DNA of 64,000 nucleotides, taken from contig JALGPY010000005.1 of NCBI GenBank assembly GCA_023055425.1, forward strand, positions 87,213,495-87,277,494, read 5' to 3'. The notes below the pieces were generated by a model. It had not been told where the DNA came from, did no database searches, and saw only the letters and a list, made by a program, of their open reading frames with translations. The stretch is from Linanthus parryae (taxonomy: Eukaryota; Streptophyta; Magnoliopsida; Ericales; Polemoniaceae). This document shows positions 1 to 60,184 of this stretch, piece after piece. Both the position numbers and the translations under genes were made by a program. The number at the start of each line of letters is the position of its first letter. The first letter of the stretch is position 1.

Positions 1-143
1 ATTATGACCGTTGGATATCTTGTATAAATTCCTTTGATGGATGTCGATTAGGGTTAATGAGAATCAGGCGTTATGCCTTGCACTTTCTTTCACCATTAGT
101 GTTCTGTTCATTTCGTCTCTAACCTAAACTAGGTTTTCTTTCA
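1..143 (+). mobile_element. 3' part of a Copia LTR (family A, copy 1)
   Basis: This is the downstream end of a long terminal repeat whose start lies before the window. It ends in CTTTCA directly before a tRNA-Met primer-binding site, as Copia LTRs do. The same sequence, with a few differences, occurs at 41490-41646, where a full candidate LTR (41360-41646) can be delimited. Position 1 here corresponds to about 41490 there. Confidence 0.75.
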
Positions 144-155
144 TGGTATCAGAGC
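144..155 (+). other. Primer-binding site (tRNA-iMet), Copia A copy 1
   Basis: TGGTATCAGAGC directly follows the LTR end. It is complementary to the 3' end of plant initiator tRNA-Met and is the usual minus-strand primer site of Ty1/copia elements. It fixes the plus-strand orientation of the element. Confidence 0.85.
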
Positions 156-239
156 GCCGCTCGAAACAACTATCTTTGCTTTGATTTTGTTTCCCATCAA
201 ATCATTCTCTGTTTATTTATCTCTCTCTGATTCCAAATC

Positions 240-2417
240 TATGATGACTACCACCGCCTCATCTTCATCTTCACGTCAAAACCCTATTTTTTGGTTATCA
301 CATATCAATCATCTAGTTTCATATAAACTTGATATCAACAAATATGTATTGTGATGACATCAATTATCTGCTATTCTTAAAACCCAATCGGTGTTTATAT
401 TGACGGTCCCATTCCTCCGCCGTCCACGACGGTCATAGCTGTTATGATTCAATCTCTTCAAATCCAGCCTTCACTGCATGGCAGATTCTATGTCAAGGTA
501 TACAAACCCTAATTAACGCTACTCTATCACAAGAAGCCCTTGTTCATGTTATTGGTCAACCTACTTCGTATTATATCTGGTCTGCCCTGGAGCGCAAGTA
601 TACTTCCCTAAGTTGAGCAAATATCATAGAACTCAAAAGTGAACTACAAAGTATCAAGAAGAAGTCGGATTTAAAAGATGCTTATATGCAGAAACTTAAA
701 ACTATTCGTGACAAATTAAATGTTGCCTATGTGGTTATAGAAAATGCCAATATGCTTTTGTTTATTCTTAGTGGTTTACCGGTTGAATATAACCCTTTTC
801 GCTCTTCTATTCGCACAAAATCTGACCCCCTTTCTCTTGAGGAACTTGCTGTTCTTCTCAAAGCTGAAGAAAAAATGTTGAAACATCAAACTAGTTCTCA
901 TCTAAACATGGCTTTTTCCTTTTACATACTGGCCTCCTTCTCAAAAATTTCTTTCGTGGTGGTGGAGGTCGTAGAAGGAGTGGAAGGTTTGGTTATTCTA
1001 GATATAACAATAAGAATACCAGATGTGGTTTTGATAGAGGAGGTGGTCGTTTGATGGTTCTCGGGGTAGATCAGGACCTTATCGTGGTGGTGGAAGGTCT
1101 TATAACCCCAGGGGAAGAAACCATTCAAGTCAAAAAAACATCAAAACTCCTCTTCTAACTCTATTATTACTTGTCAAATTTGTGGAAATGACTACCACTC
1201 TGCTCTTGATTGCTCGTTTAGAATGGATCACTCAAACCAAGTTCGTATGTCACCCTCAAGTTAATTGATTATTCTGCTAACACCTCTAATTCCCAAATGC
1301 AACCCAACTATTGGTTGACAGAAACAGGTGCAACAAACCATATGACTGCTGATCCTACTTCTCTTTCTTACGCTGAAAATTATACTTGTGGTGATCATCT
1401 TGCTGTTGGTGGTCATGTTTTACCTCTCACACACTCTGGTAATGCTTAACTCTCGACTCCTACTTGTGCGTTGAATCTCAATAATACTTTGCTAGTACCA
1501 TATGTAACTGCTAATCTGCTCTCAGTTGCAACACAATTGTAGATTTCTCTTTGATGCTCATTCCTTTTCCATTCAGGAAAAGGATTCAGGTCAACTTCTA
1601 TATCAGGGTCAGAGTAAGAATGGGTTGTACCACATTCACTTTATTCATTTTCACAATATCTCTTATGTCAAGTCTTATGTTAGAAGTTATGTTCAAGCAA
1701 ATCTGGGACAGTGAATAGTGTCTTCTATTTGGCATTCTCGATTAGGCCATCCATCAGATGCTGTTTTAAAACAAATATTTCCTGATTTATCTCTAGATGC
1801 TATCTCTTCTGTCTGCAAACATTGTCTTGAAGGGAAAAAGTCAAGACTCCCTTACAAGTTGTTTACAAACATGTCAGGTACTCCTTTACATTTACTGCAT
1901 TCTGATGTTTGAGGACCTTCCTCAACTCAGTCTCTAAATGGTTTTATATTTTATGTTACTTTTATTGATGACATGTCTAGATTTATTTGGGTGTTTGGTT
2001 TGTTCCATAAATTTGATGTGACTTCTATCTTTCCTAAATTTAAATTACTCATTGAAAAAGAAGTTGGTCATTCTGCACATATGTTGATCTCTGATGGAGC
2101 TGGTGAGTACATATCTTTTCCGTTTCAACAAACCTGATATGAAAATAGCATTGCTCCTCAAAAATTATGTCCTCATACCCCACAATAGAATGGAGTTGCA
2201 TTAAGTAACACACATACATATTATCAAAACTGCTTTTACTCTTCTGCAAAATGCTTCTTTACCAAATTTATGTGTTTTCATGTTGTGGATGCTGCTGTTT
2301 ACTTTTTTTAACATAATGCCTATTAGAGTAACTGGAAATAAATCTATTTGTGAAATTCTTTTCAAAGTAAAACCTTAGATTGATCACTGAACTTTATTTG
2401 GATGTGCTTGCTAACAC
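240..2417 (+). pseudogene. Copia A gag-protease-integrase remnant
   Basis: This is a decayed Copia polyprotein read across several frames. The gag part spans about 430-1260 and includes an open stretch at 686-1054. At about 1172-1216 there is a zinc knuckle with intact C-X2-C-X4-H-X4-C spacing (CQICGNDYHSALDC). The protease active site near 1316-1345 reads TETGATNHMT, so the usual Asp is Glu. The GAG-pre-integrase HHCC part follows (WHSRLGH near 1730, CKHC near 1815). The integrase core starts with HSDV and an in-frame stop replacing the usual Trp (about 1899-1915), then IDDMSRF near 1963. A degraded PQ-NGVA motif lies near 2185. The sequence then stops abruptly at the inverted-repeat locus that starts at about 2418, and no RT or RNase H of this element is seen. 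An Ale/Ivana-like lineage is a guess. Confidence 0.8.
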
Positions 2418-2545
2418 TGAGATAAAATATCCTAAACCTTAAGATACCAAAGGCACTGTAAAATTATGTATTGATCGAAGTTTGTATCTGATTTCAATAC
2501 AGGCCACATGGAGAGCTCGTTTTAAGTAAAAAGAGTTATGTTTTA

Positions 2546-2570
2546 ACACACACACACGCGCGCGCACGCG

Positions 2571-2604
<34 letters not shown>

Positions 2605-2620
2605 CACATACACACACACA
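2546..2620. repeat. CA/CG/TA dinucleotide microsatellite
   Basis: This is a compound run of CA, CG and TA dinucleotides in the left arm. The matching place in the right arm (about 12541-12570) holds only a short GT/TA run, so the tract expanded in one arm after the inverted duplication. Confidence 0.8.
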
Positions 2621-3184
2621 TACGTGTACGTGAGAACATGGCTCATAATTTAGGGAGAACTTATGAAATGAGAAGTTTCAACTCCAGTTTCAACTCCAAC
2701 TAGACATAGGTGGTTTTCATTGATGACACCCCTTGAGGAGGCCGAGTTTGATATCTGAAGCATGCCATCAGAAGGTGTCTCAATGTGTGAATTAGCCCGT
2801 GAATAGAATTAATGTTATTGTTCAAAAATTTAAAATACCAGAAACTTTAGCTTTAACAGAACTGATAATTGAATTCATTAGTACGAAAAATAAGAAACGC
2901 CTTATGTTTATAGTTAAATTCTACCTTTTATGGGGTATTCAGGAAAATGATAATTAATTAACATTATTTACGAATTTATTTGGATAGTAGATTATGGAGG
3001 GGAATTGGAGATTTTGAGTTAGAAGGCTGAATAAGATCATTCCTTTCTAGTGAAGTAAGAGTTACGGCAGTTGTTCACTTACTACGGGTGGTGAGAATTG
3101 CATGGAAGTGTCGCAGATAACATCAAACGAAAATATTGAAAATAACAGTTCAATATACCTGGTAGCATCACATGTTGTTTGGTT

Positions 3185-3267
3185 TAAACTCATGTAGGAA
3201 GAAATATGATAGATGCATGCAAGAGTAATTAGCAGACGCTACTCAATAATTATTTTTAGGTCAAGGT

Positions 3268-3346
<79 letters not shown>
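3185..3346 (+). repeat. First, separated array unit with a long (TA)n tract
   Basis: The segment from AAACTCATGTAGGAAG to AGGTCAAGGTAGA matches the first half of the tandem unit found from 4246 onward. It runs into a pure TA tract at about 3270-3346. It lies next to the SRA C-terminal sequence in the left arm, and its inverted counterpart is at about 11451-11560 in the right arm. It therefore probably represents the original neighbour of the SRA fragment before tandem amplification. Confidence 0.75.
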
Positions 3347-3350
<4 letters not shown>

Positions 3351-3365
3351 TACCTCAACTTCTCT

Positions 3366-3990
3366 CGAACTTTTCCCACTGATTGCCGGTTAGTTTGGGC
3401 TGTTCTGGCCTCTGCACCAACTCAAACGCGTATACCATTTTACCTGTAGGTAGACTTTCTTCTTAAAATGAGTCGACCTCGTACAACCCATCGTACATGT
3501 ATAAGAGGTCGACCATGCCTCCTTAACCTACTTTCCAGTTTCCTCTTATAACTCTTACAGGGTTTTTAGTGCGATGACTGTTTCTCAATGCAAGTATTCC
3601 ACCTTGGAGCTTCTGGTCTACTGGTTGTTTCTTACCCGAAGCTCCTGCATTGCTAATGATAATCTGAAACTCTCAGCCGTCGGTTTTCTCACGATAGCCA
3701 CCACAGTCAGAAGATACCACTAGATTGCAGATGATATCATTGTCTTGCCTTGTGAAGTCAACTTCTGTATGTTGCTGTTTGTGGAGGCCGATGATGGACA
3801 TGGCTGTCCTGAACCGAAACTCGTCCCCAACCTCCACGTCAGGGTCACTTACGATGACATTAGCAGGGGTGATGAAATGCGGATCACTCCTGATCAGCTT
3901 TACTGCTTGCTGATCGACCCTTCCGACTCCGTCGTTCTTCAGTTCCGTACAAAGATCGTTGAAACGACAAAGGGTTTTTGTGGTGGTTAA
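3366..3990 (-). pseudogene. SUVH-type SRA (YDG) domain fragment, inverted copy
   Basis: On the minus strand, 3990-3676 is open for about 100 codons. It reads through LCTELKNDGVGRVDQQAVKL, then VEVGDEFRFRTAMSIIGLHK, then LVVSSDCGGYRE, and ends at a TGA (3673-3675). After a frame change, 3672-3366 encodes further SRA-like pieces: LALRNS-type and NPVRV, then YDGLYEVDS, then QPKLTGNQW. Motif order matches the SRA domain of plant SUVH histone H3K9 methyltransferases, including the VPGVEVGDEF-like start, GLH, the SGGY-like block, NPVRVIRG and YDGLY. UHRF/VIM-type SRA proteins lack this YDGLY context, so a SUVH origin is preferred. No pre-SET or SET domain is seen, so this is a fragment. It is the more complete arm of the palindrome centred near 4010. 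Confidence 0.8.
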
Positions 3991-4034
3991 TGTTGCAAGT
4001 GGTGTTTTATGACACCTTCTATGTTTGATTAGCC

Positions 4035-4250
4035 ACCTGAAACACCCTTCGTCGCTTTAATGTTCTTTGTACTGAGCTGAAGAATGACGAAGTTAGAAGG
4101 GTTGATTAGCAAGAAGCAAAGCTGATCAGGACAAATCTGCATTTCACCACACCTGTTAATGTCATCAGAAGTGTTCCCGAGTGGAGGTTGGGGACGAGTT
4201 CCGCTTTAGGACGGCCATGTCCATCATCAGCATCCACAAACAACAAAATG
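4035..4250 (+). pseudogene. SRA-domain fragment, proximal right palindrome arm
   Basis: This is the plus-strand counterpart of minus-strand 3770-3990. It contains the blocks for TELKNDEVRRVD-like sequence, then PANVI, then the VEVGDEFRFRT region. A single base is missing just before VEVGD (CCCGAGTGG here, CCCGGAGTGG in the in-frame copy at 13224), so the frame is broken. It is separated from the inverted arm by only about 40 bases, giving a tight hairpin, and leads directly into the tandem array. Confidence 0.75.
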
Positions 4251-4867
4251 CGGCGGTTGATTTAAACTCATGTTGGAAGAAATATGCTAGATGCATGCAA
4301 GAATAATTAGCAGACGCTACTCAATAATTATTTTTAGGTCAAGGTATAAGAAAGATATATATATTTATATGCGTACCTCAATAATCTGCATTTCACAATA
4401 CCTGCTAATGTCATCAGAAGAGTTCCCGAGTGGAGGTTGGGGACGAGTTCCGCTTTATGAAGGCCATGTCCATCATCAGCATCCACAAACAGCAACATGC
4501 GGTGGTTGATTTAAACTCATGTAGGAAGAAATATGCTAGATGCATGCAAGAGTAATTAGCAGACGCTACTCAATAATTATTTTTAGGTCAAGGTAGAAGA
4601 AAGATATATATATATATATTATATATATATATATATGCGTACCACAATAATCTCCATTTCACCACACCTACTAATGTCATCAGAAGTGTTCCCGAGTGGA
4701 GGTTGGGGACGAGTTCCGCTTGAGGACGGCCATGTCCATCATCAGCATCCACAAACAGCAACATTCGGCGCTTAATTTAAACTCATGTAGGAAGCAATAT
4801 GCTAGATGCATGCAAGAGTAATTAGTAGACGCTACTCAATAATTATTTTTAGGTCAAGGTAGAAGAA

Positions 4868-4904
<37 letters not shown>

Positions 4905-5368
4905 GAACTTTTCCCACTGATAATGTCATCAGAAGTTTTCCCGAGTGGAGGTTGGGGACGAGTTCCGCTCAAGGAAGGCCATGTCCTTCATCAGCATCCA
5001 CAAACAGCAACATGCGGCGGTTGATTTAAACTCATGTAGGAAGAAATATGCTAGATGCATGCAAGAGTAATTAGCAGACGCTACTAAATAATTATTTTTA
5101 GGTCAAGGTAGAAGAAAGACATATATATATATATATATGCGTACCTCAATAATCTGCATTTCACCATACCCGCTAATTTCATCAGAAGTGTTCCCGAGTG
5201 GAGGTTGGGGACGAGTTCCGCTTCAGGACGGCCATGTCCATCATCAGCATCCACAAACAGCAACATGCGGCGGTTGATTTAAACTCATGTAGGAAGAAAT
5301 ATGCTAGATGCATGCAAGAGTAATTAGCAGACGCTATTCAATAATTATTTTTAGGTCAAAGTAGAAGA

Positions 5369-5401
<33 letters not shown>

Positions 5402-5884
5402 GCGTACCTCAATAATTTGCATTTCACCACACCTGCTAATGTCATCAGAAGTGTTACCGAGTGGAGGTTGGGGACGAGTTCCGCTTTAGGACGGCCATGT
5501 CCATCATCAGCATCCACAAACAGCAACATGCGGCGGTTGATTTAAACTCATGTAGGAAGAAATATGCTAGATGCTTGCAAGAGTAATTAGCAGACGCTAC
5601 TCAATAATTATTTTTAGATCAAGTTTGAAGAAAGATATATATATATTTATATGCGTACCTCAATTATCTGCATTTCACAATACCTGCTAATGTCATCAGA
5701 AGTGTTCCCAAGTGTAGGTTGGGGAAGAGTTCTGCTTCAGGACGGCCATGTCCATCATCAGCATCCACAAACAGCAACATGCGGCGGTTGATTTGAACTC
5801 ATGTAGGAAGCAATATGCTAGATGCATGCAAGAGTAATTAGTAGACGCTACTCAATAATTATTTTTAGGTCAAGGTAGAAGAAA

Positions 5885-5944
<60 letters not shown>

Positions 5945-6062
5945 ATATGCAGCAACATGCGGCGGTTGATTTGAACTCATGTAGGAAGCAATATGCTAGA
6001 TGCATGCAAGAGTAATTAGTAGACGCTACTCAATAATTATTTTTAGGTCAAGGTAGAAGAAA

Positions 6063-6112
<50 letters not shown>

Positions 6113-6866
6113 TACCTCAATAATCTGCATTTCACAATACCTGCTAATGTCATCAGAAGTGTTCCCGAGTGGAGGTTGGGGACGATATCCGCTTCAGGAC
6201 GGCCATGTCCATCATCAGCATCAACAAACAGCAACATGCGGCGGTTGATTTAAACTCATGTAGGAAGAAATATGCTTGATGCATGCAAGAGTAATTAGCA
6301 GACGCTATTCAATAATTATTTTTAGGTCAAGGTAGAAGAGAAATATATATATATAAATATGCGTACCTCAATAATTTGCATTTCACCACACCTGCTAATC
6401 TCATCAGAAGTGTTACCGAGTGGAGGTTGGGGACGAGTTCCGCTTTAGGACGGCCATGTGCATCATCAGCATCCACAAACAGCAACATGCGGCGGTTGAT
6501 TTAAACTCATGTAGGAAGAAATATGCTAGATGCATGCAAGAGTAATTAGCAGACGCTACTCAATAATTATTTTTCGGTCAAGGTTGAGGAAAGATATATA
6601 TATATATGTGTGTGTATATATATATATATATGGGTACCTCAATAATCTGCATTTCACAATACCTGCTAATGTTATCAGAAGTTTTCCCGAGTGGAGGTTG
6701 GGGACGAGTTTCGCTTTAGGACGGCCATGTCCATCATCAGCATCCACAAGAAGCAACATGCGGCGGTTGATTTAAACTCATGTAGGAAGCAATATGCTAG
6801 ATGCATGCAAGAGTAATTAGTAGATGCTACTCAATAATCATTTTTAGGTCAAGGTAGAAGCAAGAT

Positions 6867-6900
<34 letters not shown>

Positions 6901-7389
6901 ATATATATATGCGTACCTCAATTTCTCCCGAACTTTTCCCACTTATAATGTCATCAGAAGTGTTCCCGATTGGAGGTTGGGGAGAGTTCCGCTTTAGGAA
7001 GGCCATGTCCTTCATCAGCATCCACAAACAGCAACATGCGGCGGTTGATTTAAACTCATGTAGAAAGAAATATGCCAGATGCATGCAAGAGTAATTAGAG
7101 GACGCTACCCAATAATTTTTTTAGGTCAAGGTAGAAGAAATATATATATATATTTATATGCGTACCTCAATAATCTGCATTTCACAATAACTGCTAATGT
7201 CATCAGAAGTGTTCCCGAGTGGAGCTTGGGGACGAGTTCCGCTTTAGGACGGCCATGTCCATCATCAGCATCCACAAACAGCAACATGCGGCGGTTGATT
7301 TAAACTCATGTAGAAAGCAATATGCTAGATCGTGCAAGAGTAATTAGCAAATGCTACTCAATAATTATTTTTAGGTCAAGGTACAAGAA

Positions 7390-7452
<63 letters not shown>

Positions 7453-7682
7453 TACCTCAATTTCTCCCGAACTTTTCCCACTGATATTGTCATCCGAAGT
7501 GTTCCCGAGTGGAGGTTGGGGACGAGTTCCGCTTTAGGAAGGCCATGTCCTTCATCAGCATCCACAAACAGCAACATGCGGCGGTTGATTTAAACTCATG
7601 TAGGAAGAAATATGCTAGATGCATGCAAGAGTAATTAGCAGACGCTACTCAATAATTATTTTTAGGTCAAGGTAGAAGAAAG

Positions 7683-7714
<32 letters not shown>

Positions 7715-8197
7715 GAGTAACTCAATAATCTGCATTTCACAATACCTGCTAATGTTATCAGAAGTATTCCCGAGTGGAGGTTGGGGACGAGTTCCGCTTT
7801 AGGACGGCCATGTCCATCATTAGCATCCACAAACAGCAACATGCGGCGGTTGATTTAAACTCATGTAGAAAGAAATATGCTAGATGCATGCAAGAGTAAT
7901 TAGCGGACGCTACCCAATAATTTTTTTAGGTCAAGGTAGAAGAAATATATATATGTATATTTATATGCGTACCTCAATAATCTGCATTTCACAATAACTG
8001 CTAATGTCATCAGAAGTGTTCCCGAGTGGAGGTTGGGGACGAGTTCGGCTTTAGGACGGCCATGTCCATCATCAGCATCCACAAACAGCAACATGCGGCG
8101 GTTGATTTAAACTCATGTAGGAAGCAATATGCTAGATGCATGCAAGAGTAATTAGTAAAGGCTACTCAATAATTATTTTTGGGTCAAGGTAGAAGAA

Positions 8198-8262
<65 letters not shown>

Positions 8263-8495
8263 TACCTCAATTTCTCCCCAACTTTTCCAACTGATATTGT
8301 CATCCGAAGTGTTCCCGAGTGGAGGTTGGGGACGAGTTCCGCTTTAGTAAGGCCATGTCCTTCATCAGCATCCACAAACAGCAACATGCGGCGGTTGATT
8401 TAAACTCATGTAGGAAGAAATATGCTAGATGCATGCAAGAGTAATTAGCAGACGCTACTCAATAATTATATTTAGGTCAAGGTAGAAGAAAGATC

Positions 8496-8526
<31 letters not shown>

Positions 8527-8759
8527 GCGTACCTCAAAAATCTGCATTTCACAATACCGGCTAATGTCATCAGAAGTGTTGCCGAGTGGAGGTTGGGGAC
8601 GAATTCCGCTTTAGGACGGCCATGTCCATCATCAGCATCCACAAACGGCAACAAGCAGCGGTTGATTTAAACTCATGTAGGAAGCAATATGCTAGATGCA
8701 TGCAAGAGTAATTAGTAGACGCTACTCAATAATTATTTTTAGGTCAAGGTAGAAGAAAG

Positions 8760-8806
<47 letters not shown>

Positions 8807-9535
8807 TACCTCAATAATCTGCATTTCACAATACGTGCTAATATCATCAGAAGTTTGTGGAGGTTGGGGACGAGTTCCGCTTTAGGACGGCCATGTTCAT
8901 CATCAGCATCCACAAACAGCAACATGCGGCGGTTGATTTAAACTCATGTTGGAAGCAATATGCTAGATGCATGCAAGAGTAATTAGTAGACGCTACTCAA
9001 TAATTATTTTTAGGTCAAGGTAGAAGAAATATATATATATATATATATGTATATGTGTACCTCAATTTCTCCCGAACTTTTCCCACTGATAATGTCATCA
9101 GAAGTGTTCCCGAGTGGAGGTTGGGGACGAGTTCCGCTTTAGGACGGCCATGTCCATCATCAGCATCCACAAACAGCAACATGCGTCGGTTGATTTAAAC
9201 TCATGTAGGAAGAAATATGCTACATGCATGCAAGAGTAATTAGCAGACGCTACTCAATAATTATTTTAGATCAAGGTAGAAGAATGATATATATAAATAT
9301 ATGCGTACCTCAATAATCTGCATTTCACACTACCTGCTAATGTCATCAGAAGTGTTCCCGAGTGGAGGTTGGGGACGAGTTCCGCTTCGGGACGGTCATG
9401 TCCATCATCAGCATCCACAAACAGCAACATGCGGCGGTTGATTTAATTTCATGTAGGAAGAAATATGCTAGATGCATGCAAGAGTAATTAGCAGACGCTA
9501 TTCAATAATTATTTTTAGGTCAAGGTAGAAGAAAG

Positions 9536-9566
<31 letters not shown>

Positions 9567-9813
9567 AATATATATGAGTAACTCAATAATCTCCATTTCA
9601 CAATACCTGCTAATGTTATCAGAAGTATTCCCGAGTGGAGGTTGGGGACGAGTTCCGCTTTAGGACGGCCTTGTCCATCATCAGCATCCACAAACAGCAA
9701 CATGCGACGGTTGATTTAAACTCATGTAGAAAGAAATATGCTAGATGCATGCAAGAGTAATTAGTAAAGGCTACTCAATAATTATTTTTAGGTCAAGGTA
9801 GAAGAAAGATATA

Positions 9814-9850
<37 letters not shown>

Positions 9851-10084
9851 GCGTACCTCAATTTCTCCCCAACTTTTCCCACTGATATTGTCATCCTAAG
9901 TGTTCCCGAGTGGAATTTGGGGACGAGTTCCGCTTTAGGAAGGCCATGTCCTTCATCAGCATCCACAAACAGCAACATGCGGCGGTTGATTTAAACTCAT
10001 GTAGGAAGAAATATGCTAGATGCATGCAAGAGTAATTAGCAGACGCTACTCAATAATTATCTTTATGTCAAGGTAGAAGAAATA

Positions 10085-10148
<64 letters not shown>

Positions 10149-10376
10149 TACCTCAAAAATCTGCATTTCACAATACCGGCTAATGTCATCAGAAGTGTTG
10201 CCGAGTGGAGGTTGGGGACGAATTCCGCTTTAGGACGGCCATGTCCATCATCAGCATCCACAAACAGCAACATGCGGCGGTTGATTTAAACTCATGTAGG
10301 AAGCAATATGCTAGATGCATGCAAGAGTAATTAGTAGATGCTACTCAATAATTATTTTTAGGTCAAGGTAGAAGAA

Positions 10377-10455
<79 letters not shown>

Positions 10456-10918
10456 TAAATAATATCATCAGAAGTTTTCCCGAGTGGAGGTTGGGGACGA
10501 GTTCTGCTTTAGGACGGCCATGTTCATCATCAGCATCCACAAACAGCAACATGCGGCGGTTGATTTAAACTCATGTTGGAAGCAATATGCTAGATGCATG
10601 CAAGAGTAATTAGTAGACGCTACTCAATAATTATTTTTAGGTCAAGGTAGAAGAAAGATATATATATATATACATATATATATGTATATGTGTACCTCAA
10701 TTTCTCCCGAACTTTTCCCACTGATAATGTCATCAGAAGTGTTCCCGAGTGGAGGTTGGGGACGAGTTCCGCTTTAGGACGGCCATGTCCATCATCAGCA
10801 TCCACAAACAACAACATGCGGCGGTTGATTTAAACTCATGTAGGATGAAATATGCTAGATGCATGAAAGGGTAATTAGCAGACGCTATTCAATAATTATT
10901 TTTAGGTCAAGGTAGAAG

Positions 10919-10989
<71 letters not shown>

Positions 10990-11055
10990 GTACCTCAAAA
11001 ATATGCATTTCTCCACACCTGCTAATGTCATCAGAAGTGTTCCCGTGTGGAGGAA
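4135..11055 (+). repeat. Tandem array of about 26 SRA-derived units (~263 bp)
   Basis: Each unit holds, in order, the SRA piece (CTGCTAATGTCATCAGAAG, then GAGTGGAGGTTGGGGACGAG, then the GCCATGTCCATCATCAGC region), AACATGCGGCGGTTGATTT, a conserved ATGCTAGATGCATGCAAGAG segment, and a variable (TA)n tract. The AACATGCGG anchor recurs at about 4246, 4493, 4762, 5009, 5265, 5527, 5779, 5956, 6232, 6486, 6756, 7035, 7285, 7577, 7839, 8090, 8386, 8649, 8920, 9178, 9428, 9700, 9977, 10268, 10549 and 10814. Spacing averages 263 bp and varies mostly with TA length. Most units encode the EVGDEFRFRTAMSI block but with a shared frameshift just upstream. Two classes exist: A with TCTGCATTTCAC and B with TCCCGAACTTTTCCCACTGA. 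Confidence 0.95.
7490..10814 (+). repeat. Higher-order A-A-B organisation in the distal array
   Basis: Class B units end at anchors 7577, 8386, 9178, 9977 and 10814, with two class A units between each pair, so the trimer period is about 0.80-0.84 kb. Rare variants show a longer hexamer period of about 1.6 kb. The GTTGCCGAG/GAATTCCGC variant is at 8649 and 10268, ATATCATCAGAAGTTT with GTTCATCATC is at 8920 and 10549, and TGTGTACCTC is at 9178 and 10814. Class B units also occur at 5009 and 7035, where the order is irregular. Confidence 0.8.
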
Positions 11056-11450
11056 GACAACAACAATATATGCACCTCCGTAGTATCCTCTGACTGTGGT
11101 GGCTATAGAAAGAACGTCGATGCAGAGACTGTCAAATAATATTCATCAACAATGCAGGAGCTTTTGAGACGAAACAAACAGTAGACCGGAGGCTCCAAGG
11201 TGGAATACTTGCATTGAGAAACAGTCAACGTATTAAAAATCCAGTTAGAGTTGATTAAAAGAGGAAACAGGAAAGTAGGCGAGGGAGGCAAGGTCTACCT
11301 CTTATAAATCTACGATGGGTTGTATGAGGTCGACTCAATTCAGGAAGAAAGAGCACCTAAAGGCAAAATGGTACACATGTTGGAGTTGGTGCGGATGCCA
11401 GGACAGCCCAAACGAATCGGGAATCAAAGTTCGTGAGAAATTTAGGTACA
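11056..11450 (+). pseudogene. SRA-domain C-terminal fragment, right arm
   Basis: Directly after the last, truncated unit the plus strand continues with the rest of the SRA region: SVVSSDCGGYRKNVD, then LALRNSQRIKNPVRV, then IYDGLYEVDSIQEERAP with GKM, then MPGQPKRIGNQ. The reading frame is broken by stops and shifts. NPVRV and YDGLY are SUVH-type SRA hallmarks. It is the inverted counterpart of 3366-3700. The N-terminal half of the domain is supplied only by the frameshifted array units, so no intact domain can be read through. Confidence 0.8.
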
Positions 11451-11576
11451 CATATGTGTTTGTTCTACCTTTACATAAAAATATATATTATAAGTATTCA
11501 GTGGCCTCTCCTAATTACTCTTGCATGCATCTGGAATATTTCTTCCTGTTGAGTAAAAATCAGGTAACCCAGCAAC

Positions 11577-11937
11577 GGGGCTGTTCGGATGAGTTTAAAT
11601 AATTGAGAGATTGAGGTTAAAAGTTCACTTAATCTGTAGTGTTTGGATGCAGTAAATTACTAGTAAAAGATATTTTTTAGATGGCGAGGTTTGAACTCGG
11701 AACCTCATGCAGGGTCTTTAAAAGCTCTAGCACTGAGCTAACACACATTTGCATAGAGAAATCCAGTAATCATCCTTAGAAAGTCTGGAATTTCCGGAAA
11801 AAAATCGTGATTGCTGCCCAAAGTCAGGATTTTTTGGATGGAATTCCAAATTTGTTTGGATTTTGAGATATTTGACCAATTATATCAGATTTTTAACTTT
11901 TCATTTCCTCCTTACTTCCTTTCATCCAAACAAGTCC
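11577..11937. mobile_element. MITE-like insertion in the right arm
   Basis: The insertion is absent from the left arm, which gives an approximate empty site near 3175 (CACATGTTGTTTGG). Its ends are GGGGCTGTTCGGATGA and TCATCCAAACAAGTCC, an imperfect terminal inverted repeat of the GGGCTGTTTGGATG kind seen in many plant MITEs. AAC flanks both sides and may be a 3 bp target duplication, as for PIF/Harbinger elements. The family is not certain. Confidence 0.5.
11680..11743 (-). other. tRNA-like (SINE head-like) segment
   Basis: On the minus strand there is a good pol III A box (TTAGCTCAGTGCTAGAGC) and, about 25 bases on, a B box-like sequence (GGTTCCGAGTTCAAACC) followed by CTCGCCATC. This is the arrangement of a tRNA or a tRNA-derived SINE head. 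The acceptor stem does not pair well with the upstream bases, and a T-rich stretch rather than a 3' CCA context follows, so a functional tRNA is unlikely. It lies inside the MITE-like insertion. Confidence 0.45.
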
Positions 11938-12803
11938 AACATGTGATCCTACCAGGTGTATTTAACTTTTATTTTATTTTACAACACTGAAGTTGATGTT
12001 ATCAGTGACACTTCCGTGCAATTCTCGCAACTCGTAGAACTGAACAATTGTGTTAACTCAAAAGAGGACTTGACCAGAAAGGAATTATTTTACTCATTCT
12101 TCTAACTCAAAAGAGAACTTCACCTGAAAGGAGGGATTTTGTTCACCCTTCTAACTCAAAATCTTAAATTCTCCTCCATAATCTACTATTCAAATAAATT
12201 CTTGAATGAACATTTTATCATTGTTCCGAATACCCCGAAAAAGGTAGAATTGAATTATATACATAATATGTTTCTTCTTTTTCTTACTTTTGGACCATAA
12301 TGTATGTACCGGTTCATGTGCTACGGTTTCTGGTATTGTAAAATTTTTGAAAAATAACATTAATGCCATTCACGGGCTAACTCACACATTGAGACACCTT
12401 ATTATGGCCTTGCTTCATGAATCAAACTCGGCCTCCTCAAGGGTTCACATCTATGAAAACCACCAATCGATGTCTAGTTGGAGTTGAATCTTCTCGTTTC
12501 ATAAGTTCTTCCTCAATTATGATACATGTTCACACTGATACGTGTGTGTATATACATATATCTATATATTAGGAGCTCGAAATAATTCTTATTATATATA
12601 TTTTTACAAAACATCCTAAAGATACGGAAACAGAACATGACATAATTCCTTCTACTAAATAGGAGCTCTCCGTGTAGCCTGTATTGAAATTAGACGCAAA
12701 CTTTGATCAGTATATAATTTTACAGTGCCTTTTAGTATCTTAGGTTTTAGTATTAATATTTTATCTCAGGGTTGGGTTTTAAAGTAAATATCAGTTTTAA
12801 GTA

Positions 12804-12830
12804 ATTAGGGTTTAGGGATATGGGTTTAGG
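12804..12830 (+). repeat. Short telomere-like TTTAGGG run
   Basis: TTAGGGTTTAGGG and a nearby GGGTTTAGG resemble the plant telomere repeat. With only two to three units it may be chance or a small interstitial insertion just outside the inverted repeat. Confidence 0.35.
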
Positions 12831-13190
12831 ATTAATATTAAAAGTTCTGTTTTCAGGTAACATTTTAAAGGAATTGTGCTACCCAAGTATGCGATATCAT
12901 CCCAATAATTATATCCCACATTAATTTCCTAATTTTTTGAATGATATAATTAGTAAGTAACTGAACTTAATCTTTCTATAACCTCATTTTTTGGGTATAT
13001 GTAGGGGTGCTTACGGTCCAATTAGGTCAGTTAGAGGCCACTAATGACAGCTAAACCTGAATGATTGGATATGCTATCATTCAAAGCAAGATACTCCCGA
13101 GTTGGAAAACTGAAGAAATAAACCTTACATATATGTGTATATATACATATATATACGTATATATAAATATGTTGGTTCTGTTCTGTTAGA
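12831..13190. other. AT-rich stretch without recognisable gene
   Basis: I see no open frame, terminal repeat or conserved motif here apart from a TA/TG-rich run at about 13128-13170. It separates the inverted-repeat locus from the next SRA fragment. Confidence 0.6.
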
Positions 13191-13194
13191 AGCT

Positions 13195-13304
13195 CAGGTT
13201 TCTATATCATCAGAAGTGTCCCCGGAGTGGATGTTGGGGACGCATTTCGCTTTAGGATGGTCATGTCCATCATTGGCCTCACAAACAACAACATGAGGAG
13301 GTAG
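13195..13304 (+). pseudogene. In-frame SRA-domain fragment
   Basis: From 13224 the sequence reads GVDVGDAFRFRMVMSIIGL and then TNNNMRR to a TAG at 13302-13304. Upstream it keeps CCCGGAGTG, so the SVPGVDVG reading frame is intact, unlike in the tandem units. It is close to the consensus start of SUVH SRA domains. It ends abruptly at the junction with the Copia B fragment (about 13313). It is probably an older or separate copy from the same source as the array. Confidence 0.75.
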
Positions 13305-13312
13305 ACTTGACA

Positions 13313-14448
13313 CCCTCAAAGCTGGTCATACTTCTAGTCCCTGTTTCATTAACTCCGAAAATCCTATGTCCTGAGGGTAACCAAACTACCCCTCGTTCTG
13401 AGTGCTATCATTCCATTTGAGGGTTTGTAGGTTGTAATCCGGCGGTGCTACTTGATTACACAGTGAGAGTCAATTATCTTGGGAGAATTTCGCTTCGAAT
13501 CAAATAGACCCTAAAGGGAGCGAATTTTAGCAATGGCTGACGAAACTCCTGCAACGAGCCCTAGTAAGGTAATTCCTACAGGACCAACACCATCACTGGT
13601 GTCGATTGGAACTCATGGGAAAGTCCAGAAAATTTTACTGGAAAAGATTTCAAGAGACCTCCATAAAAGATGCTATTCCACTTGACTACCCCGAACTTGG
13701 CAAAGTTCTTGACGGAAGATGCTGCAACACTGCCTGAATGTTAAGACAGACAAACAGTCACTGCGGTGGATCCATGAAAACATTCTAACTTTTTGGCCAA
13801 GAACTAATTTCATAACGAATTAGATAAAACCTTGTATACTATTTATAGTGTTGCTTAATCCTGTAAAGAACTTTGGAAGTCTCTTGCAAAAAATTACAAA
13901 ACTGGGATGAGGGGGCAAGAAATTTGTATTTGCTAAGTTCCTCAAAATTTGTTGGTTGATACCAAAACTATAATAAGTCAAGTTCAAGAGTTGCAGGTTA
14001 TACTACATGATACTCCTATTTAAGGAATGGCGTTAGGCGAATCAATCCATGTTGCTTGTATGATTGAGAAACTCCCTCCTTCGTGGAAGGATTTCAAGAA
14101 TTATCTAAAAAACAATCGGAAAGAATCCGAATGGAAGAACTCATCATCCTCTTGAGGATTGAGGAAGATAACCGCAACTCAGATAACAAAGGAGGAATTG
14201 TGCAAGCCAAACCCAACTTCGTGGATCTAGTTACCAAGAAGTAACGAAAGGATCACAACGGCAATGGGAAAGACAAGGTGTTCAGGGAAAATGGTACAAT
14301 TGTGAGAAAGCTGGCCATCGTAGAAATGGATGCAAGAAGAATCAGAAGATTCCTGAGAACAAAAACCGAGGAAAGTTTGCTGAAACTAAAAACGACAATG
14401 GTGTCCACTTGTCCGCGGTAGTGCCGGAGGCAAACATGATTGGTAGTA
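13313..14448 (+). pseudogene. Copia B gag remnant (copy 1)
   Basis: After a leader, gag starts at ATG 13533 with MADETPATSPSKVIPTGPTP, a start seen in many Tnt1/Tork-like plant Copia gag proteins. Later pieces in shifted frames include an LQVILHEI-like block, ESIHVACMIEKLPPSWKDF near 14041-14100, and a zinc knuckle near 14288-14335 (YNCEKAGHRRNGCKKN, first Cys lost). At the end comes the VHLSAVVPEANMIGS stretch that precedes protease. The sequence is cut at 14449 by an inverted LTR. The first about 520 bp recur at 43137-43645. Confidence 0.75.
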
Positions 14449-15400
14449 TGTAGGGTTTTGATACGGATTGCACAGCGGAATAACAATGAATAGATTCCGT
14501 TCAAGATCCTCCATGAATTGTATATCATGCATCATAACTACGGTAAGTTATACGAGATTTGTGTACCTTGTTTGTCTCAATTAATCACTTTACGTAGAAT
14601 AGCGTCCACGTCTCTATGGATATCCACACCTAGGATTGCTCGGTATCCTTCTCGGGCCTTTGTGCTAGCAACGGAAGAAGGTTGAAGAAGAAGATCATGC
14701 AAACGGGACGCCCAAGAGGGGTCGCGCCTCACGAGGCCTTGGCGAGGGAGGGGGCGGACGGGGGGTGGGGGAGGGAGTCTCAGCCTCCTTGTCTTTCTCT
14801 ATCCTTGCTTTTATCTGTCTCAATTGTGATAACAAACTTATGAGAAAATAAGCTAGGAGTGCCCTCATATCGTTAATAATTCCTTATTAACTACATATTA
14901 GCCCCAATACTAATCATGTCCATACACGGATTAGTCCACTTTGAAAATTAGTCCTTATAAGTATTCTTGTTATTGCGTATTGATCCTTCTATTTAATTAG
15001 TCCTACTAATTAATCCCAAAGTCCGGTTTAATCTATAGGGTGTGTGACCTCATAGGTTTCTACTTAGTTGATAGTAACAATTACTAACATAGAGTGGTTT
15101 CTAGCAAGACAAGTGTGCCACCATACTAACATAAATATTCAGAGATCCGACAAACCTTGTGACCAATATAAAAAAAGCAATATTACACAACTAGAGTATC
15201 TAGTGACTTCAAGTCTAAGGGCAACAATACCATTGCCACAACGAGAATAACTTGTGACTTTAACATAATTAATGTAGCCTTCTCGTTGTGGGTCGTTCCA
15301 GTATGCCATTACCCCTAATGCATAACAGTGTGCTAGACTTGATATCACAATATCAGTCTACCCACATACTAGTCTATAGTTGATCGTTAAGAATTTGGCA
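14449..15400 (-). mobile_element. Inverted LTR related to the 62273-63675 LTR
   Basis: The plus strand starts TGTAGGGTTTTG and ends AATTTGGCA, so the minus strand runs TG to CA. Much of it aligns with 62350-63675 in reverse orientation, for example the CTTATTTTCTCA block, ATATGTAGTTAA, GAAGGATCAATACGCAA and AGGTCACACACC. It lacks about 150 bp of the 5' LTR end present in the other copy and is more GC-rich in one patch (about 14700-14780). No internal region adjoins it, so it is a solo or truncated LTR. The flanking 5-mers (TAGTA and CTCAA) do not match, so a simple solo-LTR insertion is not proven. Confidence 0.65.
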
Positions 15401-22570: not shown

Positions 22571-23016
22571 TGAAGGACGTACTTGATCTAACACATTCAG
22601 ATCTACAACATGAATTAAAGCGGAATATTCATGTGTTTACCTTGTCTTCCTTAGCTCCTAAGTGCAACGGATGATCGTAGGGTGCTTGCTTTCACGTGCT
22701 CTTCTTGCTCCCACAGTCTGGCTCGAATCACTAGGACGAAAGCTCTGATCCACACCAAGTTCCACGCAATGGAGGCTAGTTGAAGAGAGAGTCTAGGGTT
22801 TACTGTATTATGATCAGCACATGATCTCTACAGTAGTGTGTATAAAATAATAGGAGGCTGTCTCCTTATATAGACAGACTTATAGCCTATTGCAACATAA
22901 CCCCCTAGGGTTTGTCCTTGCTACTAACCCCATAAGGTTTGAGCTTGTCTCACCTAAACCCATAAGTTTAGGTTAATTGCACTGTGCACCCCACATGGGC
23001 GCACATAATGCTAACA
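22571..23016 (-). repeat. 3' LTR of the minus-strand Copia
   Basis: 446 bp, TG to CA on the minus strand (TGTTAGCATTATGTGCGCC to TACGTCCTTCA). It appears identical to 29718-30163. A TATATAGA box-like sequence in both LTRs (minus complement of TCCTTATATAGAC, near 22870 here) may be part of the promoter. Confidence 0.95.
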
Positions 23017-29717: not shown

Positions 29718-30163
29718 TGAAGGACGTACTTGATCTAACACATTCAGATCTACAACATGAATTAAAGCGGAATATTCATGTGTTTACCTTGTCTTCCTTA
29801 GCTCCTAAGTGCAACGGATGATCGTAGGGTGCTTGCTTTCACGTGCTCTTCTTGCTCCCACAGTCTGGCTCGAATCACTAGGACGAAAGCTCTGATCCAC
29901 ACCAAGTTCCACGCAATGGAGGCTAGTTGAAGAGAGAGTCTAGGGTTTACTGTATTATGATCAGCACATGATCTCTACAGTAGTGTGTATAAAATAATAG
30001 GAGGCTGTCTCCTTATATAGACAGACTTATAGCCTATTGCAACATAACCCCCTAGGGTTTGTCCTTGCTACTAACCCCATAAGGTTTGAGCTTGTCTCAC
30101 CTAAACCCATAAGTTTAGGTTAATTGCACTGTGCACCCCACATGGGCGCACATAATGCTAACA
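29718..30163 (-). repeat. 5' LTR of the minus-strand Copia
   Basis: 446 bp, apparently identical to 22571-23016. It is followed by the second GTATG target duplication at 30164-30168. Confidence 0.95.
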
Positions 30164-31364: not shown

Positions 31365-32839
31365 CAAGGGGGCCTAAGGGGGCCATGGCCCCTACAAATC
31401 TTTTTTTGCTTCTTATCATGTAAGTATAAATTTTAGAAAATTATGTACCCTTTTAAGCTTGGCCCTCTCATTTTTGGACAAAATATATAGTAAAATGGAA
31501 TGGATGGTAGCGGTAAAAGGGTAAATTACATCCCGTTTTATAGGAAATCATACCATCTTTGAGATAAATTTAAATTTAATTTAATAGGTGGTCAACGATT
31601 AATTAGGTGATTTTAGAATAAGTGGAGTGAAAATAGGAGTTTTGCTACAATAGCAGTTACTTCAAATCCAAAACAATCCCTATAATTGAGGATGTTTATT
31701 CTATATGAATGAATTTCATTAAAATAAATTATAAAAAAAGTGAGGAAAACAGAATAAAGAAATTAATTCTCAAGTTTTCTTTATCATGATGTCTTTGCGC
31801 GAAGACTTTTTTCTCTTCGTGCGAAGACCTTCGTGCGAAGAGTTTCATTCTTCATACGAAGACCTTCTTATTTCAAGACTGAGAGCTTTTTCCCGATGAC
31901 TTCTGAAATTTTGGATAAGAAAAGTCTTCGTGGGGAGAGAAATTCTCTTCGTGGGAAGGTCATCGTGAGAAGACAAATTGTCTTTATGCGAAGACCCTGT
32001 AGCTCCAGGATTCTTCTTCATCTTCAACGGTCCATAACTTTTTCCTTCGATGTCCGTTTTAGCTCTGTGACCCGCCGTTGGAAAGCTCTTCGAGTCTTCT
32101 TTCAATTTTCACTGCTCTCACTTACATCTTCATTGTACAACCCAAAATATCCTTAATATATCCTTAATTTGCTCTAAAACATCCTTGAAAAGCAACTAAG
32201 CTTTTTGAAAAGCAAATAAGGACCCGACTTTTGATCCCGAAATCCGATGAATGTAATTTTTGAACCTTTGCAGTTCTTTTGCGACGTAGACTTGGATCAT
32301 GTACAGAAATTCCCGTTTCGGAACCATTTTCTCGTTTTTCTCAATCCCCAAAATTGGCGAAAACATCCAAAACGCGCCAAATTTGCCTTTTTCTTCTATT
32401 TTGAGGCTTGTTTCTTCTCTCCACTTAATTCCTGCATACGTAATTCCTGTCAAACAACAACACGAACACTACCGCGAAGATAAAATGTGATAAATTATCA
32501 AAATCATAATCAAAACTATTAAGGAACTCGCGGATTGTAAATTTAAGTTCTAAAACATCCAAAAGTGCATTTTCTTCTCAAATTAGCCCAAAATCCATCA
32601 CTTTGCACCTAAACGCACACAAATAACAATGTGAAACGTACGTAGGATAACTCTTATTAAGAGTTATCAAATACCCTCACACTTTGCATTTGCGCGTCCC
32701 GAGCGAAGTGTCATCTACTGCATCTAACTGTTTAATAGCCAAACAGACTCAAACGACTCAAACAAGACTCAAGACACTACTAATGCAGCAAGATGATGCA
32801 AATGAAATTCTAGACTCAATCTCTAAGTCCTGGTGCGCT
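31365..32839. other. LTR-like debris with CTTCGTGCGAAG palindromes
   Basis: No gene is recognised. At 31797-32000 the palindrome CTTCGTGCGAAG and close variants recur (31815, 31829, 31850 and weaker ones near 31925 and 31985). The same motif returns at 35739 beyond the Copia fragment. The words GACCCGCCGTTGGAAAGCTC and CACTTTGCATTTGCGCGTCC resemble plant Gypsy LTR sequence. I infer a Gypsy-type LTR fragment interrupted by the Copia fragment that follows. Confidence 0.35.
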
Positions 32840-35560
32840 ACTAAAGCCAGTAGAACCCTGATCGAAGTATGTCTGAATACCGTTGAGAAGATGTCATTGT
32901 AGTCAACTCTCTCTTTCTGACTAAACTCTCAGGCAACTAGCCTTGCCTTATACTTGATGCCCTCCCCTTCTGTAGCTCCTTCCTTTCTTCTAATGAACCC
33001 CTTGGAACTGAATATCTTTCTTCCCTCTGACAATTTAACAAGATCCCAAGTCGAGTGCTTGCAAAGAGACTACATCTCTTCACCCATCGTGGTAATCCAC
33101 TGTGCTGACTTAGAACTAGATATAGCGGCCTTCTAGGTGGACGACTCATCATCCACCTCTTCCGCTACTTGCAATGCATATCCCACCATACCATAATCTA
33201 TGTATCTAGCATGAGGCTTTATGAATATCCTTGGTATTCCTTAAGTAATACATTGATATTCCGGTTTCTCTGGTACAGACGCATCCTCACTATCAGACTC
33301 TTTTTCTTCTTCCTCTTCGGCTTTCGGCGGTGGTGTAGTATTTCGGAATCCTTAGGGTCAATAGGATTCGACTCTCCCTCAACCTTCTTATTTGCACCTC
33401 CAACCTCTATCTATACGGAATTCTTCCACATAGGACTCTCATCAAAGACTACACTTATGATAAGTATAATCTTATTGTCTATCCATATCTTGTATCCCTT
33501 CACACTTGTTCCGAAACCCATGAATACTCCCTTCTTTGAACTTGGTTCTAGTTTTCCATCATCAACGTGAATAGGAAATTCAACCAAAAACTCTCAAATT
33601 CGATTAATCCTACTCTACCGGACCAAACTTCCATAGGAATCTTGCATCCTATACATGTGTGCGGGCTCAGATTCACGAGATAGCATGACATGAAGACTAC
33701 TTCTCCCCGGAAACCTCTAAAAGACCTGAATTCGAAATCATACACCTTGCTTTTGGTAAAAGTGTCTGAATCATTCTCTCAGCTACATTAATCTGCTGTG
33801 GTGTGTATCAAACGGTGTGATGGCGAGCAATACTCTGATCCTTGCAGAATCCATCAAATTCTGATGAAGAAACTTCCAAGACATTATCTGTGCGCAACCT
33901 CTTCTCCTTCTTTTCCACTTGATTCTCTACAAGTGTCTTTCACTCCTTGAATCTTGCGAAGGCTACACTTGGGTGTTTCCTCACGAATATGCAAGTCATC
34001 CTTGAGTAGTCGTCTATGATGCTCAAAATACATGTACCAACCAATCCGCTCAACTTGAGATGGATCCCAGAAATTCAAATGGTTATAATCAAGAGTACCT
34101 TTCATTCTATGAACCAGATTAGGTGACTTTCTACGATGTAGCTTCCCGTACACTCAGTGCTCACAAAACCCTAGGCTCTTGGGCACATGCTCAATGAGAT
34201 AGCCTTTCTTGTGAAGTTTCTACGTTCCACGTTCACTCATATGATCGAGTCTCATATGCCATAGCTTGGTTTGATCAGCTTCCTTGATCTCCGCCAAGAC
34301 AACTCTGACATACCCTATTATAGTCGAACCTTGTTATACGAAGTCCCATCCTTGACCCCCTTGAGTAGCACATCCGAGTAATTGTAGACACATAATCCTA
34401 CACCATCACCTTAGAAGTTGAATCCCTTGTTGTCGTAGACTCAAAAATATAAAATTCTTTGTGACAAGAGATACGTGTCTAACATCCTTCAAAGTGAATG
34501 CCTTCTCATCAAACGTCTTGAATCTAACTGAACCTTTTCCTATGACCTTGAAAACAACTGTGTTTGCCTTATGAATGGATCCCCCATCTGCACGGTTGTA
34601 GCCTGAAAATAGTTCCCTGTTGAACATATATGATAAGAAGCCCTCGAGTCAAGAAACCACGCATCCGGTTGATGAGTCAAGAAACCACGCCAGTAGAACG
34701 AAATCATCCTCAGGACGAACTCCCCTTCTCTACCATGGCTGCAGAGCCATTCTGTCATGTTAACCTCGTTTCGGGAAATCTCTCTTCTAGTGTCCCTTTC
34801 TCTTGCACCAAGAATAGACATTCTCAGGTAACTTATAACCAGAGAACTGATTCTTCTTATTCTTCTTACCCTTCTTGCTCCCACCAGTTTCTATCAAAAT
34901 GGAAGCATGGTTCTCTGTACTTGTGCCTGCACCCCTATGGCGCAGCTCCCTAGCATGGAGCGCTGGTCTGACCTTCTCTAGGGATAATTCTTCCTTGTTC
35001 ACAATGAATGAATAAACAAAGTTCTCATATGATGGAGGTAACGATCAAGATTAATAAAAAATTCGGCATCCTCATGGCCCACATTCTCGCCAATATTAGG
35101 CGAATCTAAAAGAATTATGTTCAACTGATCAATATGATCATTGGGATCCGTACCTTCAAGAATCCGCAAAGTGAAGAGCCTTTTATTAAGCATCAACTTT
35201 CTAGTGAGACTCTTCGTTGTGTAGAGACTCTCCTACTTGAGCTAAGTCTTCACTGCTTCCTTCTTATCTGCGACCTCGATCATCACGTCATCCGGTAAGT
35301 AAAACATAATGTTTAAATGTGCCTTCTCCTCCATTTCATTGAACTCCGATGTACTAGCATCCATGCCTCCCTCGTCCGCGGTCAAAGGTGTCCACAACCT
35401 CTGCGATTAAATAAAGCCTCATCTTTATCTTCCACATACTGAAGTTGTTCGCTCCTATGAACCTGTCGATCTTCAAATTTGATACAGACATGTTTCTTGG
35501 TGGATTAATCTTGACGTAAGCTTAGATATCAGTTTGTTATTACACCCACGATGACTCTCA
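32840..35560 (-). pseudogene. Decayed Copia fragment, same family as 56798-61664
   Basis: It is collinear with about 58525-61210 of the complete element but more diverged. On the minus strand, gag is at about 35520-34980 (LNKRLFTLRILEGTDPNDHI, then EELSLEKVRPALHARELRHR), the zinc knuckle region near 34800, and the protease region at about 34690-34620 (AWFLDSRASYHICSTGNYF, with DTGAS changed to DSRAS). Integrase follows (DYNHLNFWDPSQVERIGWYM near 34090-34020, and KIPMEVWSGRVG near 33640). It ends at the RT start (about 32840). RT and RNase H are missing. Stops and shifts are frequent. Confidence 0.8.
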
Positions 35561-41359: not shown

Positions 41360-41646
41360 TGTTGGCTTCTATATTTTACACATCTAGACCGTATTGAACT
41401 CATTTCCAAATTAGTAAGATAGCTTTACATTTATGTTCTTATAATCTTAGCCAGCATTTATGTTCTTATAATCTTAGCCAGCAGTTCATATTATGACCGT
41501 TGGATATCTTGTATAAAATCCTTTGATGGTAGTCGATTAGGGTTAATGAGAATGAGGCATTATGCCTTTCGCTTTCTTTGACCATTAGTGTTCTGTTCAT
41601 TTCTTCTCTATGTGTTCTTTGATTAATATAAACTAGGTTTCTTTCA
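41360..41646 (+). mobile_element. Candidate 5' LTR of Copia A copy 2
   Basis: It begins TGTTGGCTTC and ends CTTTCA immediately before the PBS, so TG to CA and 287 bp. The 3' part is homologous to 1-143. A 27 bp direct duplication (41428-41454 and 41455-41481, CATTTATGTTCTTATAATCT start) lies inside. No 3' LTR is present, so the left border is inferred from the TGTTGG start and cannot be checked by comparison. Confidence 0.6.
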
Positions 41647-41658
41647 TGGTATCAGAGC
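41647..41658 (+). other. Primer-binding site, Copia A copy 2
   Basis: TGGTATCAGAGC directly after the LTR, as in copy 1 at 144-155. Confidence 0.85.
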
Positions 41659-41739
41659 GCTGCTCGATCCAACTATCTTCGTTTTAATTTTGTTTCCCAT
41701 CAAATAATTCTCTGTTTATGTTATCTCTCTCTGATTCCA

Positions 41740-43651: not shown

Positions 43652-43803
43652 CAAGAAGAAGAAGAAGAAGAAGAAGAAGAAGAAGAAGAAGAAGAAGAAG
43701 AAGAAGAAGAAGAAGAAGAAGAAGAAGAAGAAGAAGAAGAAGAAGAAGAAGAAGAAGAAGAAGAAGAAGAAGAAGAAGAAGAAGAAGAAGAAGAAGAAGA
43801 AGA
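43652..43803 (+). repeat. (GAA)n microsatellite, about 49 units
   Basis: A nearly perfect GAA/AAG tract that continues into interrupted GAA (43804-43822). In the frame of the following ORF it codes lysine, so it probably grew from the lysine-rich start of that ORF. Long GAA tracts can form triplex structures. Confidence 0.95.
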
Positions 43804-60139: not shown

Positions 60140-60184
60140 GGAGATCAGATTCTTCTTAATATGTGGTACATGCCTGACTTGATC

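Follow-up and report, generated by a model that had tools for sequence, protein, structure and literature searches.

Structure of the locus

We analysed 64,000 nucleotides of Linanthus parryae DNA (the window; C68:87213495-87277494 in a host genome of 1.51 Gb), near the left end of which lies an inverted repeat, or palindrome, made from an SRA-domain gene. Ten further sites on C68 were retrieved for comparison. Nine of them (L009-L017) are sister copies of the palindrome, and one (L018) carries a single SRA frame. The inverted repeat claimed by the original prediction was confirmed by arm alignment: the arms are collinear (minus 2413-3991 against plus 4027-4263 and 11050-12773) and are separated by a central spacer of 36 nucleotides (nt). 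The SRA motifs described in both arms are likewise real, with Pfam SAD_SRA matches in the minus arm and in three plus-arm pieces. The six longest ungapped arm-to-arm blocks (2449-3991 against 4028-12732) are 80-86% complementary, four gapped blocks have 76-84% identity, and identity at the palindrome core is about 77%. The original prediction had overlooked a 25-unit array between the plus-arm pieces and a third SRA fragment at 13204-13312. The features of the locus are as follows.

1-2412, plus strand: copia A fragment (gag to integrase), adjoining the minus arm on its left; translation motifs run to about 2409
2413-4009, minus strand: minus arm, an SRA gene that begins near codon 15-19 of the intact relative and ends at the stop, with about 940 bp downstream (plus-arm alignment; tblastn with the intact open reading frame)
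3179-3358, plus strand: minus-arm piece (antisense exon end and 3' region, with (TA)39), the source type of the second half of the array unit by divergence to the units
3358-4032, minus strand: SRA reading frame of 225 codons with three in-frame stops (Pfam SAD_SRA E 8.8e-30; SUVH5 chain E 1.4e-28)
3830-4190, no strand assigned: palindrome centre, a near-loopless hairpin if transcribed (folding energy, both strands)
4010-4262, plus strand: first part of the plus arm (SRA exon, with a frame break common to the nine retrieved sisters)
4161-11026, plus strand: tandem array of 25 units, absent from the nine retrieved sisters
11050-12773, plus strand: remainder of the plus arm (SRA middle and end, 3' region)
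13204-13312, plus strand: third SRA fragment, fused directly to copia B
13312-15400, plus strand: 5' part of copia B (gag); the end is the limit of the query used, not of the element
41490-43643, plus strand: cassette flanks without palindrome (1-1631 joined to 13312-13827; 88.4% and 88.6% identity)

The translation of 1-2412 has gag-preintegrase/integrase-like motifs, from which we take this stretch to be copia A.

SRA identity of the arms

The minus-arm reading (4032-3358), scored with X at in-frame stops, matched SAD_SRA (PF02182) with 103.9 bits against a cut-off of 30.7. The three plus-arm pieces gave E values of 0.0058, 0.00095 and 3.6e-6, each singly under the gathering score. Among relatives with solved structures the minus arm ranked SUVH5 first and SUVH6 second, followed by SUVH4, SUVH9 and UHRF1; the assignment to the SUVH5/6 type is this score order among solved relatives and not a rooted family tree. 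The closest SRA protein relatives, from Ipomoea, show 41-42% identity across 70% of the query.

When 120 SRA homologues, some of them with pre-SET/SET, were compared with the window by tblastn (E up to 0.01), 1,912 of the 1,915 hits fell in SRA parts. The remaining three were weak single hits of queries P0001, P0028 and P0079; the first two queries carry no SET domain and the hit of the third overlaps the third SRA fragment. No pre-SET/SET homology was found in the window by this search, in which five SET-bearing queries were checked individually. The combination of SRA with pre-SET/SET that marks a SUVH histone methyltransferase was not found at the locus. The earlier account of an inverted duplication of a SUVH5/6-type SRA gene, able to give a hairpin, stands. 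Its SUVH methyltransferase parent is not supported, as no pre-SET/SET homology was found and the local intact relative is a stand-alone SRA frame. Neither an Rfam family at gathering scores nor any product of a tRNA scan was found in the window.

A stand-alone SRA frame close to the locus

The suggested search of the host genome for a parent gene led locally to a stand-alone SRA frame instead of a SUVH parent. This frame, about 320 kb from the window locus, is open for 242 codons from its first ATG on the minus strand (C68:86894721-86895446; L018:2222-2947). It matches SAD_SRA with E 1.8e-31 and 109.4 bits and has no other Pfam domain, so it is without SET. It has no adjoining inverted partner, and its stop is the TGA that also ends the minus arm. 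We regard it as a candidate functional gene. The parent of the palindrome was likely an SRA-only gene and not a full SUVH methyltransferase, because this nearby open SRA frame has no SET. A CT-rich stretch lies upstream of the frame.

Where the arms begin relative to the open frame was examined in all ten copies. In five copies the minus-arm match starts at codon 15, in the window at codon 18 and in one copy at codon 19; it starts at codon 11 in two others and at codon 1 in one. We take the last three starts as chance extension because those matches cross the axis into plus-arm DNA. For the plus arm, the first matching codon is 26 in seven copies and 31 in the window; of the two remaining copies one starts at codon 39 and the other at codon 5, and the match that starts at codon 5 likewise crosses the palindrome axis. 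The 695 bases that comprise codons 1-14 of the open frame and the DNA upstream of them had no match in window positions 1-14000 or in the nine sisters (E up to 1). From the codons at which the matches begin and this null search, neither arm appears to hold the start of the frame or its upstream DNA.

About 5.5 kb from the open frame, and head to head with it, lies a truncated plus-strand SRA fragment (L021; C68:86900945-86901228) that reaches back to codon 6 and is followed by copia B; it resembles the third SRA fragment of the window.

Local multiplication of a cassette

The genome was searched with an array unit as query, and 40 of 464 first-look candidates were scored, so copy counts are lower bounds. 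Half-unit pairs lie on C68 at least between 86.894 and 87.225 Mb, and, with the window locus included, at least ten copies are spread over about 250 kb. The palindrome centre is present in all nine retrieved sisters, with a shortened minus arm in L013. In eight of the nine the minus arm has copia A immediately to its left, and in five the third SRA fragment is fused to copia B at one and the same base; the other loci end earlier or differ. A comparable joint of SRA fragment and copia B is found at C68:86901228/86901259. These shared copia joints lead us to conclude that a cassette of copia A, minus arm, plus arm, third SRA fragment and copia B has multiplied locally.

The long inverted arms, the abrupt outer ends at 2413 and 12773 and the many copies might suggest a mobile element of Pack-MULE or foldback type, bounded by long terminal inverted repeats, that captured an SRA sequence. 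Most copies, however, sit at the same copia joints (the retrieved fractions given above), no target-site duplication was seen by eye at the outer ends, and among the matches listed those of palindrome type fall within one cluster only. Shared joints are the mark of segmental duplication and not of insertion at new sites, and we rejected the mobile-element explanation, which is very improbable.

At 41490-43643 the copia A and copia B flanks are fused with a 3-bp overlap, ACC, at the joint. We read this stretch as a cassette that lost its palindrome. Immediately after its copia B match there is an (AAG)56 microsatellite (43653-43820).

A chimeric tandem array in one copy

The array at 4161-11026 has 26 anchors, which mark 25 full units and a last unit that is cut. 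Units are spaced 248-298 bp apart, except for one of 457 bp that contains an extra 178-bp half unit. Each consists of the plus-arm SRA exon followed by a piece oriented like minus-arm 3179-3358, including the TA microsatellite. In none of the nine retrieved sisters is the array present; there the plus arm passes directly from 4262 to about 11053. Full-length matches to the unit were found in the window only, among the candidates scored.

Both palindrome arms have contributed to every unit. The second half diverges by 0.079 from the minus arm and by 0.205 from the homologous plus-arm piece, whereas the exon half diverges by 0.175 from the minus arm. The distance of the second half from the minus arm is thereby close to the divergence among the units, 0.063. 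The sister arms gave the same answer. In all nine sisters the exon half resembles the plus arm (mean divergence 0.096) more than the minus arm (0.179). For the second half the comparison covers the eight sisters with both pieces, L013 having lost the one from the minus arm, and in all eight it is more like the minus arm (87.5-95.5% identity) than the plus arm (70-84.5%). Because the window-arm divergences and the sister arms agree, each array unit is a chimera of the two arms. The exon half is conserved no more than the other half (0.059 vs 0.062).

Internal joints, read by eye, are of type A in 17 units, of type B in seven and of neither type in one, and from the unit at 7199 onward every third unit is of type B. 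Similarity between units at lags 3, 6, 9 and 12 is above the rest, a level reached by 19 of 10,000 permuted orders. The array is a head-to-tail satellite that shows a weak higher-order pattern of three units. Assembly is difficult in long TA runs and in tandem repeats, and the array might be an artefact of it. This is hardly credible for units that differ by about 7% outside TA runs (mean identity 92.7%), carry two joint types and include a private half-unit duplication.

Predicted hairpin formation and tests for RNA pairing

The palindrome centre (3830-4190) folds with -223.8 kcal/mol on the plus strand (z -26.4, 100 shuffles) and with -205 kcal/mol on the minus strand (z -20.4). A hairpin fold was obtained in all ten copies (-173 to -198 kcal/mol, plus strand, 331-341 nt). 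By these predictions the locus is able to form long double-stranded RNA. Arms as similar as these give a good fold regardless of whether it has a use.

Changes that keep pairing were compared with those that break it. Between the window arms, three blocks hold 66 G.U (pairing kept) against 69 A.C (broken) differences, and a fourth block, with an 8-nt overlap with the first, adds 6 and 3. Over the ten copies, 2 of 127 pairs are compensatory, with an unfavourable covariation term of +1.78, and one-sided changes break pairs in 40 cells and keep them in 24. These figures give no sign of selection for RNA pairing, in what is a weak test among ten related copies.

We then compared the 709 21-mers of the intact frame with the locus. 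Exact matches numbered 6 in the inner hairpin of the window, 21 in the whole minus arm, 14 in the plus arm without array and 4 in the array; within three mismatches the numbers were 96, 374, 256 and 77, respectively. Two control stretches had no match. Two sister hairpins had no exact match (90 and 102 within three mismatches). Since such matches exist, silencing of the intact SRA gene in trans by hairpin-derived small interfering RNA (siRNA) is possible in principle.

There is a precedent in Arabidopsis Cvi-0, where read-through transcripts of two near-identical SRA-domain genes, VIM4-VIM2, yield siRNAs that lower VIM1 (PMC13213937). One or several of the ten palindromes could act in the same way on the intact SRA gene. 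The very stable hairpin of all ten copies, the exact and near 21-mer matches where two controls have none, and the published action of a head-to-head SRA-gene palindrome (PMC13213937) speak for it. We nevertheless regard it as unlikely. The two sister hairpins tested lack an exact 21-mer, arm identity at the core is about 77% compared with 99.86% in Cvi-0 (PMC13213937), the parental upstream region is absent from the arms, and there is neither an excess of pairing-preserving changes nor covariation. A bolder version, in which the ten palindromes together act as a dosage family whose hairpin siRNAs trim expression of the intact SRA gene nearby, with the array adding many repeated sense and antisense targets, seems to us quite improbable. 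If true, it would be a chromosome-local RNA interference brake on a DNA-methylation reader, built from the reader's own dead copies.

Decay, selection and proposed history

Decay is common to the copies. In all nine retrieved sisters the plus arm is broken into two frames at about the same place, and none of them has an uninterrupted minus-arm reading. L009, L015, L016 and the window have the stop in SF*EES in common, so the gene had died before at least these copies spread. Among themselves the plus arms have a mean nonsynonymous divergence (dN) of 0.076 and a synonymous divergence (dS) of 0.062 (45 pairs), and these copies look neutral.

We consider it probable that the locus is a decaying pseudogene palindrome that was amplified as a passenger, with a satellite born across its centre. 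A stand-alone SRA gene of SUVH5/6 type, without SET, would have been inversely duplicated, with the axis in its 5' coding part and a spacer of about 36 nt. Fold-back template switching could be one route, since template switching is described as producing inverted copies (PMC10766183). Both arms then decayed. The palindrome with copia A, the SRA fragment and copia B was copied to at least ten places over about 250 kb. In the window copy only, as compared with the nine sisters, the plus strand from about 3183 to about 4260 would have been tandemly duplicated across the axis, and the duplicated stretch would have lost about 0.77 kb of palindromic core (about 3358-4131 or about 3384-4158). We infer these steps because the units are chimeric with two kinds of internal joint. 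Expansion would have followed to the 25 units, with weak three-unit order, that are seen. The locus would behave as unstable, neutrally evolving repeat DNA. As a palindrome among retroelements it may well be methylated and yield 24-nt siRNAs, which would be a by-product; it could feed RNA silencing, but nothing in its sequence indicates that it is kept for this.

Several results weigh against this history. The minus arms among themselves (L013 excluded) have dN of 0.077 and dS of 0.120 and are not clearly neutral. Between the arms dN/dS is 0.48 in the window, with a mean of 0.57 over nine loci. Because these ratios are below 1, part of the arm divergence seems to have arisen under coding constraint, which favours either descent from two paralogues or a time during which one lineage was functional, and is the main result opposing a simple dead-on-arrival duplication. 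An unrooted tree puts the two arm types in separate groups with the L018 gene between them and does not fix the order of events. The hairpin has survived in all ten copies, and one-sided transitions lean to G.U at 19 sites against 11 for A.C (two-sided binomial p 0.20, the pairs being selected on the same data). Relative to the single gene L018, dN/dS is 0.56 for the minus arm and 0.71 for the plus arm.

The arms could thus be two separate head-to-head SRA paralogues, each truncated, and not one inversely duplicated gene. Besides the arm-to-arm dN/dS and the separate clades, the plus-strand SRA fragment that stands head to head with the intact gene at 5.5 kb (C68:86.895/86.901 Mb) speaks for such an arrangement. 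We hold this origin to be doubtful, if deserving of serious weight. Homology of the arms reaches within about 36 nt at the axis and extends about 940 bp beyond the stop to the same outer ends, which a fold-back duplication would give for free, and the three mean pairwise distances (0.157, 0.179 and 0.195) are near a star.

Relation to known systems

The original prediction had proposed an undescribed system. Instead, the locus belongs to a set of at least ten decayed copies, lacks the parental upstream region and gives no sign of maintained pairing, and the hairpin principle has already been published for VIM4-VIM2 (PMC13213937). The two loci share an inverted SRA-domain gene pair of the DNA-methylation machinery, a short non-palindromic spacer (50 bp in Cvi-0, about 36 nt here), repeats within the arms and a record of rearrangement. 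They differ in that the Cvi-0 arms are genes of 99.86% identity with read-through transcripts, siRNAs and a measured effect, whereas here the arms are pseudogenes of 76-84% identity, lacking the parental upstream region and known from sequence alone. Here, too, there are ten copies, one with a satellite array, and the SRA is of SUVH5/6 type and not VIM (PMC13213937).

Mu killer of maize is likewise a partial inverted duplication that could give a long hairpin if a neighbouring transcript reads through, but it is transposon-derived and has a genetic effect, whereas our locus is known only as sequence (PMC3440606). Young MIRNA genes also arise from an inverted gene or pseudogene fragment whose foldback is related to its parent; unlike them, the locus here has no covariation (PMC3237417). 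Satellites from dispersed or mobile sequence resemble the array in the local tandem amplification of a once-single sequence, but the unit here is chimeric, made from both arms of a gene palindrome, and not part of a transposon (PMC12628747). In the open-licence PMC literature, at title and abstract level, we found no SUVH inverted repeat or pseudogene array.

The hairpin idea is thus known in kind, and what is new is the anatomy: ten decayed palindromes near an open-frame relative, with a chimeric satellite in one. As far as can be shown the locus is ordinary in function and unusual in anatomy. A satellite has been caught near its birth, together with nine sister copies of the site that lack the array, and the route suggested for it is a tandem duplication that spanned a gene palindrome and lost the core. 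With ten natural hairpins and one open-frame target in one genome, it becomes directly testable outside Arabidopsis whether gene palindromes regulate silencing factors.

Other features of the window

A telomere-like motif at 12805-12817, a single repeat, does not exceed chance when up to two mismatches are allowed (a count as high occurs in 46 of 100 shuffles). A 2.7-kb direct repeat of 80% identity occupies 32815-35503 and 58497-61198, its second copy overlapping a copia gag frame. Two direct repeats of 446 bp (22571-23016 and 29718-30163), 7.1 kb apart and 100% identical, are possibly the long terminal repeats of a young element.

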